Below are positions 29,074 through 37,320 of a DNA stretch of 37,320 nt, piece after piece. Position 1 is the first letter of the stretch. Each line of letters opens with the position of its first letter. The notes below the pieces were generated by a model, which saw only the letters and a list, made by a program, of their open reading frames with translations, did not search any database and was not told the origin of the DNA. The position numbers and the translations under genes were made by a program. The DNA lies in the NCBI GenBank assembly GCA_002707745.1, contig PANU01000057.1, forward strand, positions 1 to 37,320, given 5' to 3'. Source of the DNA: Flavobacteriaceae bacterium (lineage in GTDB: Bacteria; Bacteroidota; Bacteroidia; Flavobacteriales; Flavobacteriaceae).

Positions 29074-29109
29074 AAAAAAGAAAGGTGATAGATATAAATC
29101 TACCACCTT
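29074..29109 (-). terminator. Terminator hairpin at the 3' end of the tracrRNA
   Basis: A 12-bp stem with a 4-base loop (29082-29109) is followed on the minus strand by TCTTTTTT. It doubles as the 3' hairpin of the tracrRNA that Cas9 is expected to contact. Confidence 0.88.
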
Positions 29110-29160
29110 GAATGTTTTCACAACGGAATAGTCCTTATTGTGAATTGCTTTCAGATTGTA
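29074..29160 (-). ncRNA. tracrRNA of the type II-C CRISPR system
   Basis: The tracrRNA pairs with the crRNA repeat and holds it in Cas9. On the minus strand the anti-repeat CTGAAAGCAATTCACAA (29154-29138) is the exact complement of repeat bases 2-18, with one more G-U pair possible at base 1. It is followed by a nexus-like hairpin (GGA-CTAT-TCC), a linker GTTGTGAAAACATT, and a 12-bp terminator hairpin (AAGGTGGTAGAT/ATCTATCACCTT, one G-U pair) with TCTTTTTT. A weak promoter (TTTG-N23-TATAAATTTTG) would start the RNA near 29160, just before the anti-repeat, giving about 87 nt. The 5' end is inferred; the anti-repeat and terminator are seen directly. It is divergent from cas9, about 90 bp from its start codon. 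Confidence 0.88.
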
Positions 29161-29246
29161 AATCTACAAAATTTATAGTTACTAAAAATGAGGATAACCT
29201 CAAAAGAAAAAAAATGAAATAATAGTTTTATAAAAAATATATTATT

Positions 29247-32200
29247 ATGAAAAGAATATTAGGATTGGATTTGGGCACCACCTCAATAGGTTGGGCATTT
29301 GTTAATGAAGCAGAAAACGAGACAGAGATGTCATTTATAGTGAAAACAGGTGTTCGAGTGGTTCCACTTTCAACAGATGAACAAATTAGTTTTGAAAAAG
29401 GACAGAGTATTACTATTAATGCAGATCGAACTTTAAAAAGGGGAATGCGAAGAAACCTGCATCGCTATAAAATGAGAAGGGCTGCCGTGATCGACACTTT
29501 AAAGTCTATTGGTTTTATTACAGATGAAACGCCACTTTCTGAAAACGGAAATGATACACACAGCACATATAAGTTGCGAGCGAAAGCAGTATCAGAAAAG
29601 TTGTCCAAACAAGATTTCGCTCGTGTTCTTTTAATGATAAATAAAAAACGAGGTTATAAAAGCAGTAGAAAAGCAAAAAACCAAGAAGAGGGACAACTTA
29701 TTGACGGTATGGCAGTTGCGAAACGCCTTGAAAATGAAAAGCTATTACCTGGGCAACTTTCATTTATTTTATTAAATGAAGGTAAAAAAATGCTACCAAC
29801 TTATTACAGGTCAGATTTGCAAAATGAGTTTAATGCTATATGGGACTTTCAAAAACAATTTTATGAGGAACACTTGACTGAAAAACATAAAGAAGCTCTT
29901 GAAGGTCTAAACAAAACAGCAACAGGACAGTATTTTGAAAAGACTATTAAAACTCAGAGAGCAGAGAACAAAGGGAAAAACAAAAAGCTGCAAGAGTATG
30001 AATGGCGGAACAAGGCAATAACAGAGCAACTTACCTTACCGCAAGTAGCATATATTTTAACTGAAATAAACAATCAAATCAATCAGTCAAGTGGTTATTT
30101 GGGTGCTATAAGCGACCGTAGTAAAGAGTTGTGTTTTAATGATCTTACTGTTGGACAATTTCAATACAACCAACTAAAACAAAACCCCCTTGCATCCTTA
30201 AAAAATCAAGTTTTTTATAGACAGGACTATATGGATGAATTTGATGCTATCTGGAAAGAACAATCGAAACATTATTCAGAATTAAATAAGAAAATTAAAG
30301 ATAAACTTAGAAACATTACGATTTTTTACCAGCGCAAGCTAAAATCACAAAAGGGACTTATAAACATTTGTGAACTAGAAGGTGTGGAACGCAAAGTAAT
30401 GACAGATGGAGAGCTAAAGAAAAAGCTAATAGGCCCAAGGGTTGCGCCTAAATCTTCACCTGTTTTTCAGCACTCTAAAATTTGGCAAAATATCAATAAT
30501 ATTATTTTAAAAAACGAAAAGACAAAAGAAATTGTTGAATTAGGTGAAGATTTAAGGGAATTGCTGTTTCAGTATCTTAATTGGAAAGATAATATTTCGG
30601 CAAGCCAGCTCATAAATTTTTTAATAAAAAATTCAGATATACCAAAAGGAAAGTGGAAAGTAAATCTTGAAAAGGTAGAAGGTAATAGTACCAATGCTGT
30701 ACTATTAAGTGTTTATGAAAAAATTACTGAAATTGAAGGGTATGATAAACTCAAATTCAGTAACCCCAATGAAGAACTCATTAAAAGTTTAAAGGTTTGC
30801 TTTACTGAAATAGGAGTTGAACCACAAATCCTGGAAATGGATTATACTTTAACGGGTAATGATTTTAGCAAACAACCGGCTTACGAGTTGTGGCATTTGT
30901 TATATTCTTATGAAGATGATTGCTCAATAACGGGAACAGAAAGCCTAGAACAAAAACTACAAGAAAACTTCGGCTTTAAAAAGGAGCACGCCAAATTACT
31001 TGTAGGTGTCAACTTTCAACAGGATTATGGAAATTTAAGTGTGCGGGCATTACGTAAAATATATCCCTATTTAGAGGAAGGCAAAGTTTATAGTGAGGCG
31101 TGTGCTTTGGCGGGATACAATCACTCCAAGTCCTTAACTGCCGAAGAAAACAACAAGAGAATATTACTTGATAAATTAGAGCTTTTAAAGAAAAATTCAC
31201 TACGAAACCCCGTGGTCGAAAAGATTCTAAACCAAATGATACACGTGGTAAATGCTGTGATTGAGAATCCAGAAATGGGTAAACCCGATGAAATTAGAGT
31301 CGAACTTGCAAGAGAACTCAAAAAGACAGCAAAGCAAAGAAATGAATTGATCAAGGTAATTACCAAAGCTACCACAGACCATATCGCATTTAGAGATAAA
31401 ATCAAAAAGGAATTTGGCTTACCCTATGTTAGTAGAAAAGATTTAATAAAATACAAATTATATCTCGAGTTAAAATCCAATGGATTTCGTACACTCTATT
31501 CTAACACTTACATAAAACCTGAAGAGCTTTTTACCAAGAAATTTGATGTAGAACACATAATCCCACAATCAGTATTATTTGATGATTCGTTTTCCAACAA
31601 AACCTTAGAATTGAGAGATGTAAACCTCGAAAAAGGAAATGAGACCGCTATTGAATATTGCAGACGTAAAGGTTGGGGAGATGATTTTAAATCTCGAACT
31701 GATGAAATTTTTAAAGCTAATGGCATAAAATACGGAAAGCGCAAAAAACTGTTGATGACCAAGACAGAAATTCCCGAAGGCTTTTTAAATCGGGATTTGG
31801 GAAATACCGCATATATTTCTCGCAAAGCAACTGAAATACTGCAACAATTAACGAGAAAAAAAGTGGTCTCCACATCTGGGAAGATTACTAGTAAACTGCG
31901 TAGCGATTGGGAACTTATAAACGTTTTACAAGAACTCAATTGGGATAAATACGAAGTCTTAGGACTTACATATTATGATTATAATAAAGAAGGAAAGGCA
32001 TTGGCAAGGATAAAAGATTGGACTAAAAGAAATGATCATCGCCACCATGCTATGGATGCAATCGCCGTTGCATTTACAAAGCCTGCTTTTATTCAATATT
32101 TAAACAATATGCACGCTAAAAGTGAAAAAGCAGGAGATATATATGGCATAGAAAAAAAATACACCTATCGAGATAAGGAAGGTGGGCGTAAATTTCACAA

Positions 32201-33353
32201 ACCTTTTGAGAACATAAGAGAAGAATCAAAAAACCACTTAGCTTCTATTTTAGTTTCCCACAAAGCAAAAAACAAAGTGGTAACTCGCAATAAAAATAAG
32301 ATTAAGATAAAGGGTAACAATAGTTTCAAGACTAAAACTGAACTCACACCAAGAGGGCAACTTCATAAAGAAACCATCTATGGAAAATCATTTTACCCAG
32401 AAGTAAAAGAAGAAAAAATAAACGGTTCTTTTTCAAAAGAAAAAATAAAAACAGTTACAAAACCAATTTATCGAGAAGCACTTTTAAAACGACTTTCAGA
32501 AAATAACCATGATGCCAAAAAGGCATTTACTGGAAAAAATTCATTGACCAAAAACCCCATTTTTATTAATGAAAAAACAAACGTACCTGACAAAGTAAAA
32601 ACGCAACAACTGCAACATCAATTTACAATACGAAAGGTAATTACCCCAGACCTTAAAATTGATAAAGTAACAGATGAAGGCATTAAAAGAATACTGGAGG
32701 AACGTCTAAAAGAATACAACGGCAAGAAAAAAGCAGCCTTTTCAAATTTAGATGAAAACCCCATTTGGCTCAATAAAGAAAAAGGTATTTCAATTAAACG
32801 AGTTACAATTTCGGGAGTCAGCAATGCAGAACCACTCCATATTGCCAAAGACCATTTGGGTAATGATGTCTTGGATGAAAAAGGCAATACAGTTCCCACG
32901 GATTATGTGAGCACTGGGAATAATCATCACGTTGCTATTTATAAAGACGAGAAAGGAAATTTGCAAGAAGAGGTTGTTTCCTTTTATGAAGCTGTCATAA
33001 GAAAAAACAATGGTTTGCCAATTGTTGAAAAAAATCATCCCAAGGGTTGGGAATTTCTTTTCACTTTAAAACAAAATGAAATGTTTGTCTTCCCAAATGA
33101 AGATTTTGACCCTTTAAATATAGATTTATATGATGATGCAAATAGAGAGTTAATCAGTAGAAATCTATTTAGAGTTCAGAAAATAGGTTCAAAAGATTAT
33201 TGGTTCAGGCGTCATTTAGAAACCACATTAGTTACCACTAAAGAATTAAATGAAGTCGTTTATCATAGAAAGCGTAATCCTAATTCGATTAGTAAAATCA
33301 TCAAAGTTAGACTAAATCATATAGGCGAAATAGTGCAAATAGGAGAATATTAA
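29247..33353 (+). CDS. cas9: Type II-C CRISPR effector nuclease Cas9
   Basis: Cas9 is the RNA-guided DNA endonuclease of the system. The 1368-aa protein has RuvC-I (ILGLDLGTTSIGWA, D8), an Arg-rich bridge helix (~60-90, RTLKRGMRRNLHRYKMRR), a recognition lobe (~90-670), RuvC-II (IRVELAREL, E686), the HNH domain (FDVEHIIPQS, D767 and H770; N793 in DVNLEKGN) and RuvC-III (HRHHAMDA, H934 and D937), then a long C-terminal PAM-interacting part containing TPRGQLHKETIYGK. All catalytic residues are present, so it should be active. It is large for II-C but in the range of Bacteroidota proteins. cas1 starts 4 bp downstream; no csn2 or cas4 is present. The ATG is preceded by an A/T-rich leader without Shine-Dalgarno. 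Confidence 0.98.
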   Translation: MKRILGLDLGTTSIGWAFVNEAENETEMSFIVKTGVRVVPLSTDEQISFEKGQSITINADRTLKRGMRRNLHRYKMRRAAVIDTLKSIGFITDETPLSENGNDTHSTYKLRAKAVSEKLSKQDFARVLLMINKKRGYKSSRKAKNQEEGQLIDGMAVAKRLENEKLLPGQLSFILLNEGKKMLPTYYRSDLQNEFNAIWDFQKQFYEEHLTEKHKEALEGLNKTATGQYFEKTIKTQRAENKGKNKKLQEYEWRNKAITEQLTLPQVAYILTEINNQINQSSGYLGAISDRSKELCFNDLTVGQFQYNQLKQNPLASLKNQVFYRQDYMDEFDAIWKEQSKHYSELNKKIKDKLRNITIFYQRKLKSQKGLINICELEGVERKVMTDGELKKKLIGPRVAPKSSPVFQHSKIWQNINNIILKNEKTKEIVELGEDLRELLFQYLNWKDNISASQLINFLIKNSDIPKGKWKVNLEKVEGNSTNAVLLSVYEKITEIEGYDKLKFSNPNEELIKSLKVCFTEIGVEPQILEMDYTLTGNDFSKQPAYELWHLLYSYEDDCSITGTESLEQKLQENFGFKKEHAKLLVGVNFQQDYGNLSVRALRKIYPYLEEGKVYSEACALAGYNHSKSLTAEENNKRILLDKLELLKKNSLRNPVVEKILNQMIHVVNAVIENPEMGKPDEIRVELARELKKTAKQRNELIKVITKATTDHIAFRDKIKKEFGLPYVSRKDLIKYKLYLELKSNGFRTLYSNTYIKPEELFTKKFDVEHIIPQSVLFDDSFSNKTLELRDVNLEKGNETAIEYCRRKGWGDDFKSRTDEIFKANGIKYGKRKKLLMTKTEIPEGFLNRDLGNTAYISRKATEILQQLTRKKVVSTSGKITSKLRSDWELINVLQELNWDKYEVLGLTYYDYNKEGKALARIKDWTKRNDHRHHAMDAIAVAFTKPAFIQYLNNMHAKSEKAGDIYGIEKKYTYRDKEGGRKFHKPFENIREESKNHLASILVSHKAKNKVVTRNKNKIKIKGNNSFKTKTELTPRGQLHKETIYGKSFYPEVKEEKINGSFSKEKIKTVTKPIYREALLKRLSENNHDAKKAFTGKNSLTKNPIFINEKTNVPDKVKTQQLQHQFTIRKVITPDLKIDKVTDEGIKRILEERLKEYNGKKKAAFSNLDENPIWLNKEKGISIKRVTISGVSNAEPLHIAKDHLGNDVLDEKGNTVPTDYVSTGNNHHVAIYKDEKGNLQEEVVSFYEAVIRKNNGLPIVEKNHPKGWEFLFTLKQNEMFVFPNEDFDPLNIDLYDDANRELISRNLFRVQKIGSKDYWFRRHLETTLVTTKELNEVVYHRKRNPNSISKIIKVRLNHIGEIVQIGEY

Positions 33354-33357
33354 AGTC

Positions 33358-34624
<1,267 letters not shown>

Positions 34625-34729
34625 AATTCAAATTGTCTGGTCGAGCGTCCATCAGAATGAAAATTCCTTTCGGGCTGACAGTCGCAATCTAATATAACAG
34701 ATTCAAATTTTAATCCTATGATTGTATTT

Positions 34730-34767
34730 AAAAAACAGTATACCAGCCAATTACGGCGGGTATACTG
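34730..34767 (-). terminator. Terminator of the CRISPR array transcript
   Basis: On the minus strand CAGTATACC and GGTATACTG form a perfect 9-bp stem, extended by GCC/GGC across one mismatch around a 6-base loop, and are followed directly by TTTTTT (34735-34730). The first four bases of the hairpin are the last four bases of the terminal CRISPR repeat. It shows that the array is read towards the cas genes. Confidence 0.85.
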
Positions 34768-35797
34768 CGAATTATCTCTAAAATTAAAGAACTGAAAGCA
34801 ATTCACAACAAAAGCATCTAATTGTCTAACGTCTTTCTTACTGCGAATTATCTCTAAAATTAAAGAACTGAAAGCAATTCACAACTCGACCCCATTCAAG
34901 ATACTTTATCTTTTGACTGCGAATTATCTCTAAAATTAAAGAACTGAAAGCAATTCACAACATCCTTTGTTGTGGTGAGTTACCATAAGGCACTGCGAAT
35001 TATCTCTAAAATTAAAGAACTGAAAGCAATTCACAACTAAAGCCAATCTATTAGAAGCGGCCACGGTACTGCGAATTATCTCTAAAATTAAAGAACTGAA
35101 AGCAATTCACAACCACTGGAATACCTTGTACCTGGATGCAAGCACTGCGAATTATCTCTAAAATTAAAGAACTGAAAGCAATTCACAACAAGAAGAAATA
35201 GAAAAAGGTGCTTTCGACGACTGCGAATTATCTCTAAAATTAAAGAACTGAAAGCAATTCACAACGGGCACAGGTTTATTGTAACCGCAGTGCAAACTGC
35301 GAATTATCTCTAAAATTAAAGAACTGAAAGCAATTCACAACCATCTTCCAGGTCTTTTGCATACCCACGGTACTGCGAATTATCTCTAAAATTAAAGAAC
35401 TGAAAGCAATTCACAACCGGAAAATTGGATACCACTACGCGAAAGCGACTGCGAATTATCTCTAAAATTAAAGAACTGAAAGCAATTCACAACTATCACA
35501 CTACCGTTTGCATTGTAAATGTCACTGCGAATTATCTCTAAAATTAAAGAACTGAAAGCAATTCACAACAGGTTGCAAAGAAAACCTTTCTACCCTCTCA
35601 CTGCGAATTATCTCTAAAATTAAAGAACTGAAAGCAATTCACAACTGCCTCACCGACTTTAACAATTTTATACATACTGCGAATTATCTCTAAAATTAAA
35701 GAACTGAAAGCAATTCACAACTGCTGAAGTAACCAAAATAAAACGGGTGCCACTGCGAATTATCTCTAAAATTAAAGAACTGAAAGCAATTCACAAA
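34764..35797 (-). CRISPR. CRISPR array, 14 repeats of 46 bp, 13 spacers of 30 bp
   Basis: The repeat units start at 34764, 34840, 34916, 34992, 35068, 35144, 35220, 35296, 35372, 35448, 35524, 35600, 35676 and 35752, exactly every 76 bp. All copies are identical except that the one at 35752-35797 differs at its outermost base (C to A on the plus strand). In the minus (crRNA) direction the repeat starts GTTGTGAATTGCTTTCAG, typical of Bacteroidota type II-C arrays, and bases 2-18 match the tracrRNA anti-repeat. Orientation is further supported by the terminator at 34730. The mature guide should be spacer followed by the repeat's 5' part. I found no match of a spacer within this window by eye. 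Confidence 0.97.
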
Positions 35798-35968
35798 AAA
35801 AAATAAACCCTGCTTTGTGAAGTTTCTAATCTGTGATTAAACGGCTGTTGTGTTACACACAGGTATCATAAATTTTAAATAGCTGCCTGGCTCAATTGCT
35901 TTGAAATATTTATAAAAATGGCAGAATTCAAAAAACTGAAGGAACCCTTGCATTAAAATTCTCTTACA
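35798..35968. other. A/T-rich flank of the array (possible leader)
   Basis: This 171-bp gap between the array and the FtsX permease gene lies upstream of the array in the direction of crRNA transcription. It begins with an A8 tract next to the variant repeat and contains only weak dyads (such as TGTG-TTA-CACA near 35849). I see no full TTG/TAnnTTTG promoter and no ORF. It may be a leader, or simply the old junction of the locus. Confidence 0.4.
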
Positions 35969-37207
35969 TCACTCAAACCGAATTGCCTTCACAGGAGAAA
36001 TTTTCGATATAATATAACTGGGCAGCAATAACATGACCAGACACAATACAAACGTGCCAAGGTTTAATGCCAGAATATAACTAATATCAAGGTAAACGGG
36101 GGCTTTGGTCACATAATAGGTGTCTGGGTTTAAGGGAAAAAGTCCAAAATATTTTTGTGTGAAGAGTAATCCCAAACCAATTACATTTCCCCAAAAAAGC
36201 CCTACTAGTATTAAATACATGGCATTGTATAAAAACACTTTTCGCACACTCCAATTACTACTACCCAGGGCTTTTAAAATTCCTATCATCTGTGTGCGTT
36301 CTAAAATAAGTACCAACAAAGCAGTAATCATATTAATACCCGCAACCAGAATCATAATCCCTATAATTAGATACGTGTTAAAGTCGAATAAATCGATCCA
36401 TTCAAAAATAGACCCGTACTTTTGCCTAATGGTCACTGCATCCAGATCGCTGTCTATAGCTTTATACACCTTGCCACCTACCGCATCTATAGCATCAAAA
36501 TCCTCTACAAACACTTCAAAAGAGCCAATCTGGTCATCTTCCCATTTATTAAGGAATTGTATGTGCCTAATATCTGCAATGAGGTATTGCTCATCAAATT
36601 GCTGAAAACCGCTGTTATAAATTCCTACAATGTCAAATCCTCTGGTACGTGCTTTTTGTGTTTTCCCTTCCTGCATAAAAAAGGTGATCACTTTATCGTT
36701 TAACTGGAGTCCCAGACGCTTGGCAAGGTATTCTGAAATTAGTATTTCTTCGTTTAAATCGCCTTTCGTATATTTTGGAAGACGTCCTTCCCGAAGAAAC
36801 TCTTCAAAATACTGCCAGTTATAATCGGTACCCACGCCTTTTACAACCACCCCTTCAAAATTGGTTTCAGTTCTAATTACAGCTCCTTTTTGAGCAGTAA
36901 CCTGAATATGCTTTATACCTTCCACCAGATTAAAAACCGGGTAAAACGCTTGCTTTTTGCTTATTGGAATTTGCGATTGGTTACTCTGGTTGGTATCGTA
37001 GTTGGTAATTATAATATCTCCGTTAAAAGCCGATACCTTTTCACGAATCTTTTTTTGAAGTCCCATACTGGTAGCAACACTTACTAACATCATAATTATC
37101 CCAAGTGCAATTGCAGTGATCGCAATTTTTATAATTGGCCCCGAAATACTACTTTTATAGTCTTTGGCAGCAATGATGCGTCGAGCGATGAAAAATTCGA
37201 AATTCAC
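35969..37207 (-). CDS. ABC transporter permease, FtsX/LolC-E type
   Basis: This 413-codon ORF encodes an inner-membrane permease of the FtsX (MacB/LolCE) superfamily. It has one N-terminal membrane helix (IIKIAITAIALGIIMMLVSVA), a large periplasmic domain (~50-260), three C-terminal helices (YLIIGIMILVAGINMITALLV, AMYLILVGLFWGNVIGLGLLF, NLGTFVLCLVMLLLPSYII) and the characteristic ending ISPVKAIRFE. Such proteins move lipoproteins or act as mechanotransducers. The track start at 37291 runs back through a divergent lipoprotein gene; the GTG at 37207 (product begins MNFEFFIARRIIAAKDYKSS) matches common flavobacterial homologues better. No ATPase gene is in view. Confidence 0.87.
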   Translation of the reverse strand: MNFEFFIARRIIAAKDYKSSISGPIIKIAITAIALGIIMMLVSVATSMGLQKKIREKVSAFNGDIIITNYDTNQSNQSQIPISKKQAFYPVFNLVEGIKHIQVTAQKGAVIRTETNFEGVVVKGVGTDYNWQYFEEFLREGRLPKYTKGDLNEEILISEYLAKRLGLQLNDKVITFFMQEGKTQKARTRGFDIVGIYNSGFQQFDEQYLIADIRHIQFLNKWEDDQIGSFEVFVEDFDAIDAVGGKVYKAIDSDLDAVTIRQKYGSIFEWIDLFDFNTYLIIGIMILVAGINMITALLVLILERTQMIGILKALGSSNWSVRKVFLYNAMYLILVGLFWGNVIGLGLLFTQKYFGLFPLNPDTYYVTKAPVYLDISYILALNLGTFVLCLVMLLLPSYIISKISPVKAIRFE

Positions 37208-37217
37208 AAAAATAATT

Positions 37218-37320
37218 ATGCGGTTATTATTCTTCAAAAATACCATTTTAATAGTTTCTCTCGCGATTTTTTCCTGCGGAAGTACCCACAATGAAACAAA
37301 CGAAGGTGATGATGGTGCTA
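37218..37320 (+). CDS. Putative lipoprotein, 3' end outside window
   Basis: An ATG at 37218 opens a reading frame to the window end (34 codons) that is not in the ORF track. It encodes MRLLFFKNTILIVSLAIFSCGS followed by a polar, Asn/Glu/Asp-rich stretch: a classical lipoprotein signal peptide with lipobox (AIFSC). This also explains why the permease ORF should not extend past 37207. The body of the protein is not visible, so function is unknown. Confidence 0.75.
   Translation, partial: MRLLFFKNTILIVSLAIFSCGSTHNETNEGDDGA

Follow-up and report, generated by a model that had tools for sequence, protein, structure and literature searches.

A conserved Bacteroidota promoter box inside long type II-C CRISPR repeats, a probable promoter for each following spacer

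In the type II-C arrays of Campylobacter jejuni and Neisseria meningitidis a promoter lies in every repeat (PMC3656092, which cites Zhang et al. 2013, as does PMC8092290). In these species the 36-nt repeat finishes with an extended sigma-70 -10 box and the start falls inside the spacer; in C. jejuni it is at spacer position five, and RNase III is still needed there for the crRNA 3′ end (PMC3656092). Repeat promoters do not, therefore, mean RNase III independence, and the processing without RNase III claimed in a preliminary description of the array studied here does not follow from the Campylobacter case. Repeat-encoded transcription has been stated for type II-C in general (PMC12080349), and for Flavobacterium columnare and F. 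psychrophilum it was proposed from a TTG near -33 alone (PMC8092290, PMC10309648). The study of Riemerella anatipestifer CRISPR1 reported that its repeats contain no potential promoters and preferred promoters in the leader (PMC5006608). Published promoter maps of the phylum place TAnnTTTG at -12 to -5 in F. psychrophilum (PMC9723704); in Bacteroides thetaiotaomicron they show a -33 element whose distance varies (PMC7366714).

We analysed a stretch of 37,320 nt from a Flavobacteriaceae bacterium (GCA_002707745.1, contig PANU01000057.1), hereafter the window. It contains an ordinary type II-C CRISPR-Cas9 locus, with cas9, cas1 and cas2 only, an array and a tracrRNA, and without csn2 or cas4. 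Its nearest Cas9 relatives are those of Flavobacteriaceae, e.g. Arenibacter and Aquimarina, and a search of Rfam gave no match within the window. The anti-repeat at 29138-29154, upstream of cas9, sets the minus strand as the crRNA strand. The features are the following:

29074-29154, minus: predicted tracrRNA, with the anti-repeat at 29138-29154 and a terminator hairpin at 29074-29109
29159-29166, minus: TAGATTTA, candidate -7 box of the tracrRNA, with the TTTA ending of the window repeat box
29247-33353, plus: cas9, 1368 aa (TIGR01865)
33358-34272, plus: cas1, type II (TIGR03639)
34274-34624, plus: cas2 (TIGR01573)
34625-34763, strand not assigned: leader, from cas2 to the array, 139 nt, inferred adaptation end
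34730-34768, minus: hairpin of leader and repeat (34735-34768) with T6 behind it (34730-34735), which probably terminates transcription of the array
34764-35797, minus (crRNA strand): CRISPR array, 14 repeats of 46 nt and 13 spacers of 30 nt
34774, minus: predicted transcription start of the leader-proximal repeat (crRNA base 36, 5 nt past the box), with the geometry of PMC9723704; recurs every 76 bases
34779-34786, minus: TAATTTTA, candidate -7 box (crRNA bases 24-31) of the leader-proximal repeat, conserved in relatives
34806-34808, minus: TTG (crRNA bases 2-4) of the leader-proximal repeat, possible -33 element; recurs every 76 bases
35752-35797, minus: leader-distal terminal repeat, first in the crRNA direction; base 1 alone changed, box intact

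The repeats start at 34764 + 76k (k = 0-13) and every spacer is exactly 30 nt long. The 14 copies are identical except for plus-strand base 35797 (crRNA base 1, G to T) in the right-most one. On the crRNA strand the repeat reads GTTGTGAATTGCTTTCAGTTCTTTAATTTTAGAGATAATTCGCAGT, with TTG at bases 2-4, 19 nt, and TAATTTTA at bases 24-31, exactly the layout given in the preliminary description; the box recurs every 76 bases up to 35767-35774. It differs from TAnnTTTG by one mismatch, the last base being A instead of G.

A single AT-rich repeat is little proof alone, and the comparative set goes far beyond chance. Arrays were extracted by one script from 80 named Cas9 loci and 120 loci from species genomes of the phylum, yielding 132 distinct repeats. 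Among the 92 distinct 44-49-nt type II-C repeats of the class Bacteroidia, 72 carry TAnnTTT[G/A] starting at bases 23-27. The ending is TTTG in 35 and TTTA in 37; a further 11 have a partial box (e.g. TAnnTTAG), 7 have nnnnTTTG only and 2 have none, and the final base of the 72 exact boxes is never C or T. With dinucleotide shuffles of repeat bases 17 to the end as control, clustering at 80% left the box in 42/58 repeats against 0.96 ± 0.99 in shuffled ones and 0 antisense, and an excess was found at every clustering level (72 vs 1.6, 42 vs 1.0 and 26 vs 0.7). The TA and TTT positions hold 1.2-2.0 bits, and bases 8-14 past the box start 0.03-0.16 bits, the sequence past the box being nearly random between species. 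An uncultured Bacteroides (L043) and Caecibacteroides (L044) have TATCTTTG at 24-31 after TTG-N19; the 47-base length given earlier for the Bacteroides fragilis repeat agrees with the published 47 bp (PMC5704556). As a conserved sequence, the promoter element of the host's main sigma factor recurs in the repeats and reads in the crRNA direction; the copy in the window has the TTTA form. Long repeats from other classes of the phylum (L108, L109, L110, L111, L112, L119, L121, L122) have TTnTTTG near bases 23-29, without the TA.

The host promoter was measured in the intergenic DNA of the same loci, arrays left out, where TTG upstream of TAnnTTTG is over-represented when about 19-20 nt separate the two. 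With tracrRNA-bearing regions removed, TTG-N19/20-TAnnTTTG occurs 59 times against 22.2 expected (2.66-fold over other spacings, p = 7e-11) and the TTAG ending 16 times against 8.1 (p = 0.009), while the TTTA ending shows no significant enrichment (25 against 22.2, 1.13-fold). TTTA was consequently rejected as a general host promoter variant, its initial 1.61-fold enrichment falling to the latter value once these regions were removed; in the window's own genome it stands at 0.7-fold. Antisense counts in upstream regions are confounded by divergent genes, and the spacing curve was used as control instead. A de novo search for the word after TTG was swamped by tracrRNA sequence and recovered TAnnTTTG in the G-type set only. 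The enrichment of TTTG in host DNA indicates that the host consensus is the one assumed in the preliminary description and that the window's own TTTA ending departs from it. The earlier view of the window repeat as a Bacteroidota promoter therefore stands in part: the -7 box is conserved, has the host spacing, lies outside the pairing region and runs deep in the Cas9 tree, but the ending in the window is off-consensus.

The TTG cannot be counted in the same way. TTG or CTG is found at bases 2-4 in 132/132 repeats, among them 29 of 36-37 nt, most of which have no box, and a rebuilding of TTG in eroded terminal repeats was not clear. Being universal in these type II-C repeats and not clearly re-created, it is no evidence of a promoter and was ruled out as such; the TTG part of the sigma-A promoter pattern is uninformative here.

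The idea that the promoter explains the ten extra bases of the repeat was likewise ruled out. The box ends at base 30-34, which leaves room for it within 36 nt, and several 36-nt relatives keep it, namely L082, L148, L165 and L116 (TAnnTTAG) and L144 (GATCTTTG); TAnnTTTG is also found in some 36-nt repeats of other classes (L098, L101, L104, L105). The lengths of the 132 distinct repeats are 36-37, 44-49 and, in one case, 57 nt. These steps of about one helical turn make an integrase ruler a better fit to the extra length than a promoter.

The arrays are polar. Leader-distal repeats have on average 6.86 mismatches and leader-proximal ones 0.13 (46 against 0 loci in the paired comparison): spacers are added at the last repeat and transcription runs toward the leader. 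In the leader-distal repeat the box is kept in 59/63 cases and bases 2-17 are intact in 21/63, the look expected of a repeat that would have promoter work alone left. However, the tail of this repeat is likewise spared, and in the box-less 36-nt clade the terminal repeat erodes from the same outer edge; the erosion, once taken as proof of a promoter, was therefore downgraded and counts as support only. Promoters upstream of the arrays showed no clear enrichment in the comparative loci. In the window, a minus-strand gene (35969-37291) is directed into the array from its crRNA 5′ side, and read-through is possible; no strong terminator was seen between this gene and the array, and a sigma-70 consensus scan is ill-suited to this phylum. 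A T9 run lies directly before the first repeat, within 35798-35968.

At the leader end, the crRNA strand of the window forms a stem that takes in 29 nt of the leader together with the final 5 nt of the leader-proximal repeat, with T6 directly after it (34710-34774: MFE -21.7, z -4.71). Since a first terminator scan with an opposite-strand control was blurred by bidirectional hairpins between cas2 and the array, a junction-specific test was used instead. It found a hairpin with a T run at 22/91 distinct leaders, the 21 besides the window including L086, L063, L018 and L206, against 0 in shuffled leaders and likewise 0 when the junction was read on the opposite strand. Within one family of 13 hairpins the ten outer pairs are always kept and two-sided changes occur at six helix pairs, some of which join the last bases of the repeat to the leader. 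These features support transcription toward the leader that would stop before an antisense reading of cas2; the hairpin may also act at the DNA level in integration. It would be formed anew by every repeat that is newly duplicated. No terminator-like leader-repeat hairpin with covariation was found in the literature searched.

Altogether, these data point to a type II-C repeat that probably carries a -7 element recognized by the housekeeping sigma factor of Bacteroidota, so that each repeat would be the promoter for the next spacer. The analysis shows the sequence and its conservation, its place outside the duplex, its match to host and tracrRNA promoters, the polarity of the arrays and the covarying leader hairpin; from these we infer that sigma binds, where transcription starts and ends, and that crRNAs are produced. 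RNA polymerase would start close to repeat base 36, some 5 nt beyond the box, which the geometry of PMC9723704 favours over the base 37-38 proposed earlier. The predicted transcript would begin with about 11 nt of repeat, continue through the spacer and take in the following repeat, whose bases 1 to about 18 would pair with a tracrRNA that is itself transcribed from a promoter of this type. Transcription would head to the leader and cas2, and the last repeat and the leader would fold into a terminator. New spacers would enter at the leader end, i.e. the 3′ end of transcription, so that a promoter in each repeat would express the newest spacers without a distant upstream promoter. The TTTG boxes are very likely to be active; as the window box has the TTTA form, its activity is less sure, and we only lean towards it.

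A different origin of the conservation would be that bases 24-31 are held by pairing with the tracrRNA or as part of the mature crRNA. The anti-repeat does constrain the first half of type II repeats, and a duplex program predicts some pairing of the box in many loci. However, an anti-repeat is present in the own locus for 92/92 long repeats, and ungapped pairing is at least 0.9 over most of bases 1-17, down to tail background by base 23, and tail-like (0.35-0.55) at bases 23-31, which confines the crRNA:tracrRNA duplex to about bases 1-18. Moreover, a TAnnTTT box lies just before the anti-repeat on the tracrRNA strand in 73/92 loci (59 ending in G, 12 in A and 2 in T), with TTG at N16-23 in 41 loci, mostly N19-20. 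The tracrRNA's own box thus stands opposite the repeat box region, and the tracrRNA would begin about opposite repeat base 18-24, leaving the repeat box beyond the duplex. A lack of conservation of bases 24-31 outside the pairing region had been named earlier as the result that would speak against a promoter; the box, kept in 72/92 repeats, is conserved there, and we regard the pairing explanation as highly improbable. Separately, the closeness of the tracrRNA promoter box to the anti-repeat (92 loci, e.g. 29159-29166 minus in the window) probably limits the extent of crRNA-tracrRNA pairing.

It could also be that TAnnTTT[G/A] is a recognition or bending site of the Cas1-Cas2 integrase, with an incidental promoter likeness and the array read from outside. 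The length of type II repeats is set by signals within them (Kim et al. 2019, as cited in PMC8092290), repeat lengths of 36, 44-49 and 57 nt step by about one helical turn, and the boxed clade is a Cas9 lineage of its own. In a quick FastTree tree of 143 Cas9 rows the box is present through a clade of 114 rows, in which its ending changed between G and A at least 11 times; outside this clade lies a lineage with a Cas9 of about 1130 aa and 36-nt repeats (GTTGTGGTTTGATTAAAG...) that have TTG and lack the box. Against the integrase site, the box shifts relative to the repeat 5′ end, starting at 23-27 among long repeats and at 36 in the 57-nt repeat of L161; it lies 14-18 nt from the spacer in long repeats, L161 included, and about 5-6 nt from the repeat 3′ end in 36-nt ones. 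Such a shifting start with a steady spacer distance is not obviously predicted by a fixed integrase ruler. The box also has the word and spacing of the host promoter, matches the tracrRNA promoter, which is not a Cas1 site, and survives in leader-distal repeats, which are not integration sites. The integrase explanation therefore appears improbable. Less remote, although still unlikely, is that the TTTG box is or was a promoter and that the TTTA form of the window and other lineages is too weak, these arrays being read mainly from outside, e.g. by read-through from the minus-strand gene at 35969-37291. The absence of TTTA enrichment in host promoters outside CRISPR loci agrees with this, as does the upstream gene pointing into the array with no strong terminator seen between. 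Yet TTTA is kept in 37 distinct repeats and precedes the tracrRNA in 11/29 loci with TTTA repeats against 0/30 with TTTG repeats (Fisher p = 0.0001), so the ending looks selected rather than decayed, and upstream promoters show no clear enrichment.

Taking the box as a promoter, the arrays are probably of the repeat-borne promoter kind known from Campylobacter and Neisseria, with a different sigma box further from the spacer. They are alike in the type II-C setting, in an element inside each repeat that would drive the next spacer and in the entry of new spacers at the last repeat (PMC12080349); they differ in that the Bacteroidota box is TAnnTTT[G/A], 14-18 nt before the spacer, with a predicted start within the repeat. 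The F. columnare and F. psychrophilum arrays belong to the same phylum and are likewise transcribed within the array toward the leader, but their papers name the TTG only and no -7 box, and the F. columnare repeats are 36 nt long; the eight reads, no more, that mapped to the F. columnare II-C array (PMC8092290) were counted against an active promoter. A second II-C lineage of the same family (L169-L175, L124, L126; 36-nt repeats, Cas9 of about 1130 aa) has TTG at 2-4 and no -7 box. The R. anatipestifer CRISPR1 array shares a 47-bp Bacteroidota II-C repeat, a 107-bp leader with a palindrome and the anti-repeat TGAAAGCAATTCACAA (PMC5006608). In type II-A and type VI systems leader and adjacent repeat also fold together, there at the crRNA 5′ end, blocking use of the extra repeat (PMC13187072), whereas the window hairpin is at the 3′ end and is followed by T6, with the look of an intrinsic terminator. 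No report of a -7 box in such repeats was found in the literature searched, which took in only a minority of subscription papers and preprints.

More tentatively, and at somewhat less than even chance, long-repeat Bacteroidota II-C arrays may be strings of individually promoted crRNA units that use the sigma box of the phylum, start inside the repeat and are closed at the leader by a terminator that no repeat but the newest is able to form. This arrangement would have an origin of its own, apart from that of the sigma-70 repeat promoters in Neisseria and Campylobacter. With the start inside the repeat, initiation in such units would be independent of the spacer sequence.

Should the box prove active, separate expression of each spacer would be the rule in most long-repeat II-C arrays of a phylum that is common in gut and sea. 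A leader promoter would then be the wrong model for these arrays, and published statements of promoter-less repeats of this kind would have to be revised. Campylobacter and Neisseria would share this solution, although their version relies on another sigma factor. Because the promoter would be of the Bacteroidota kind, crRNAs may not be made when such arrays are transferred to E. coli.
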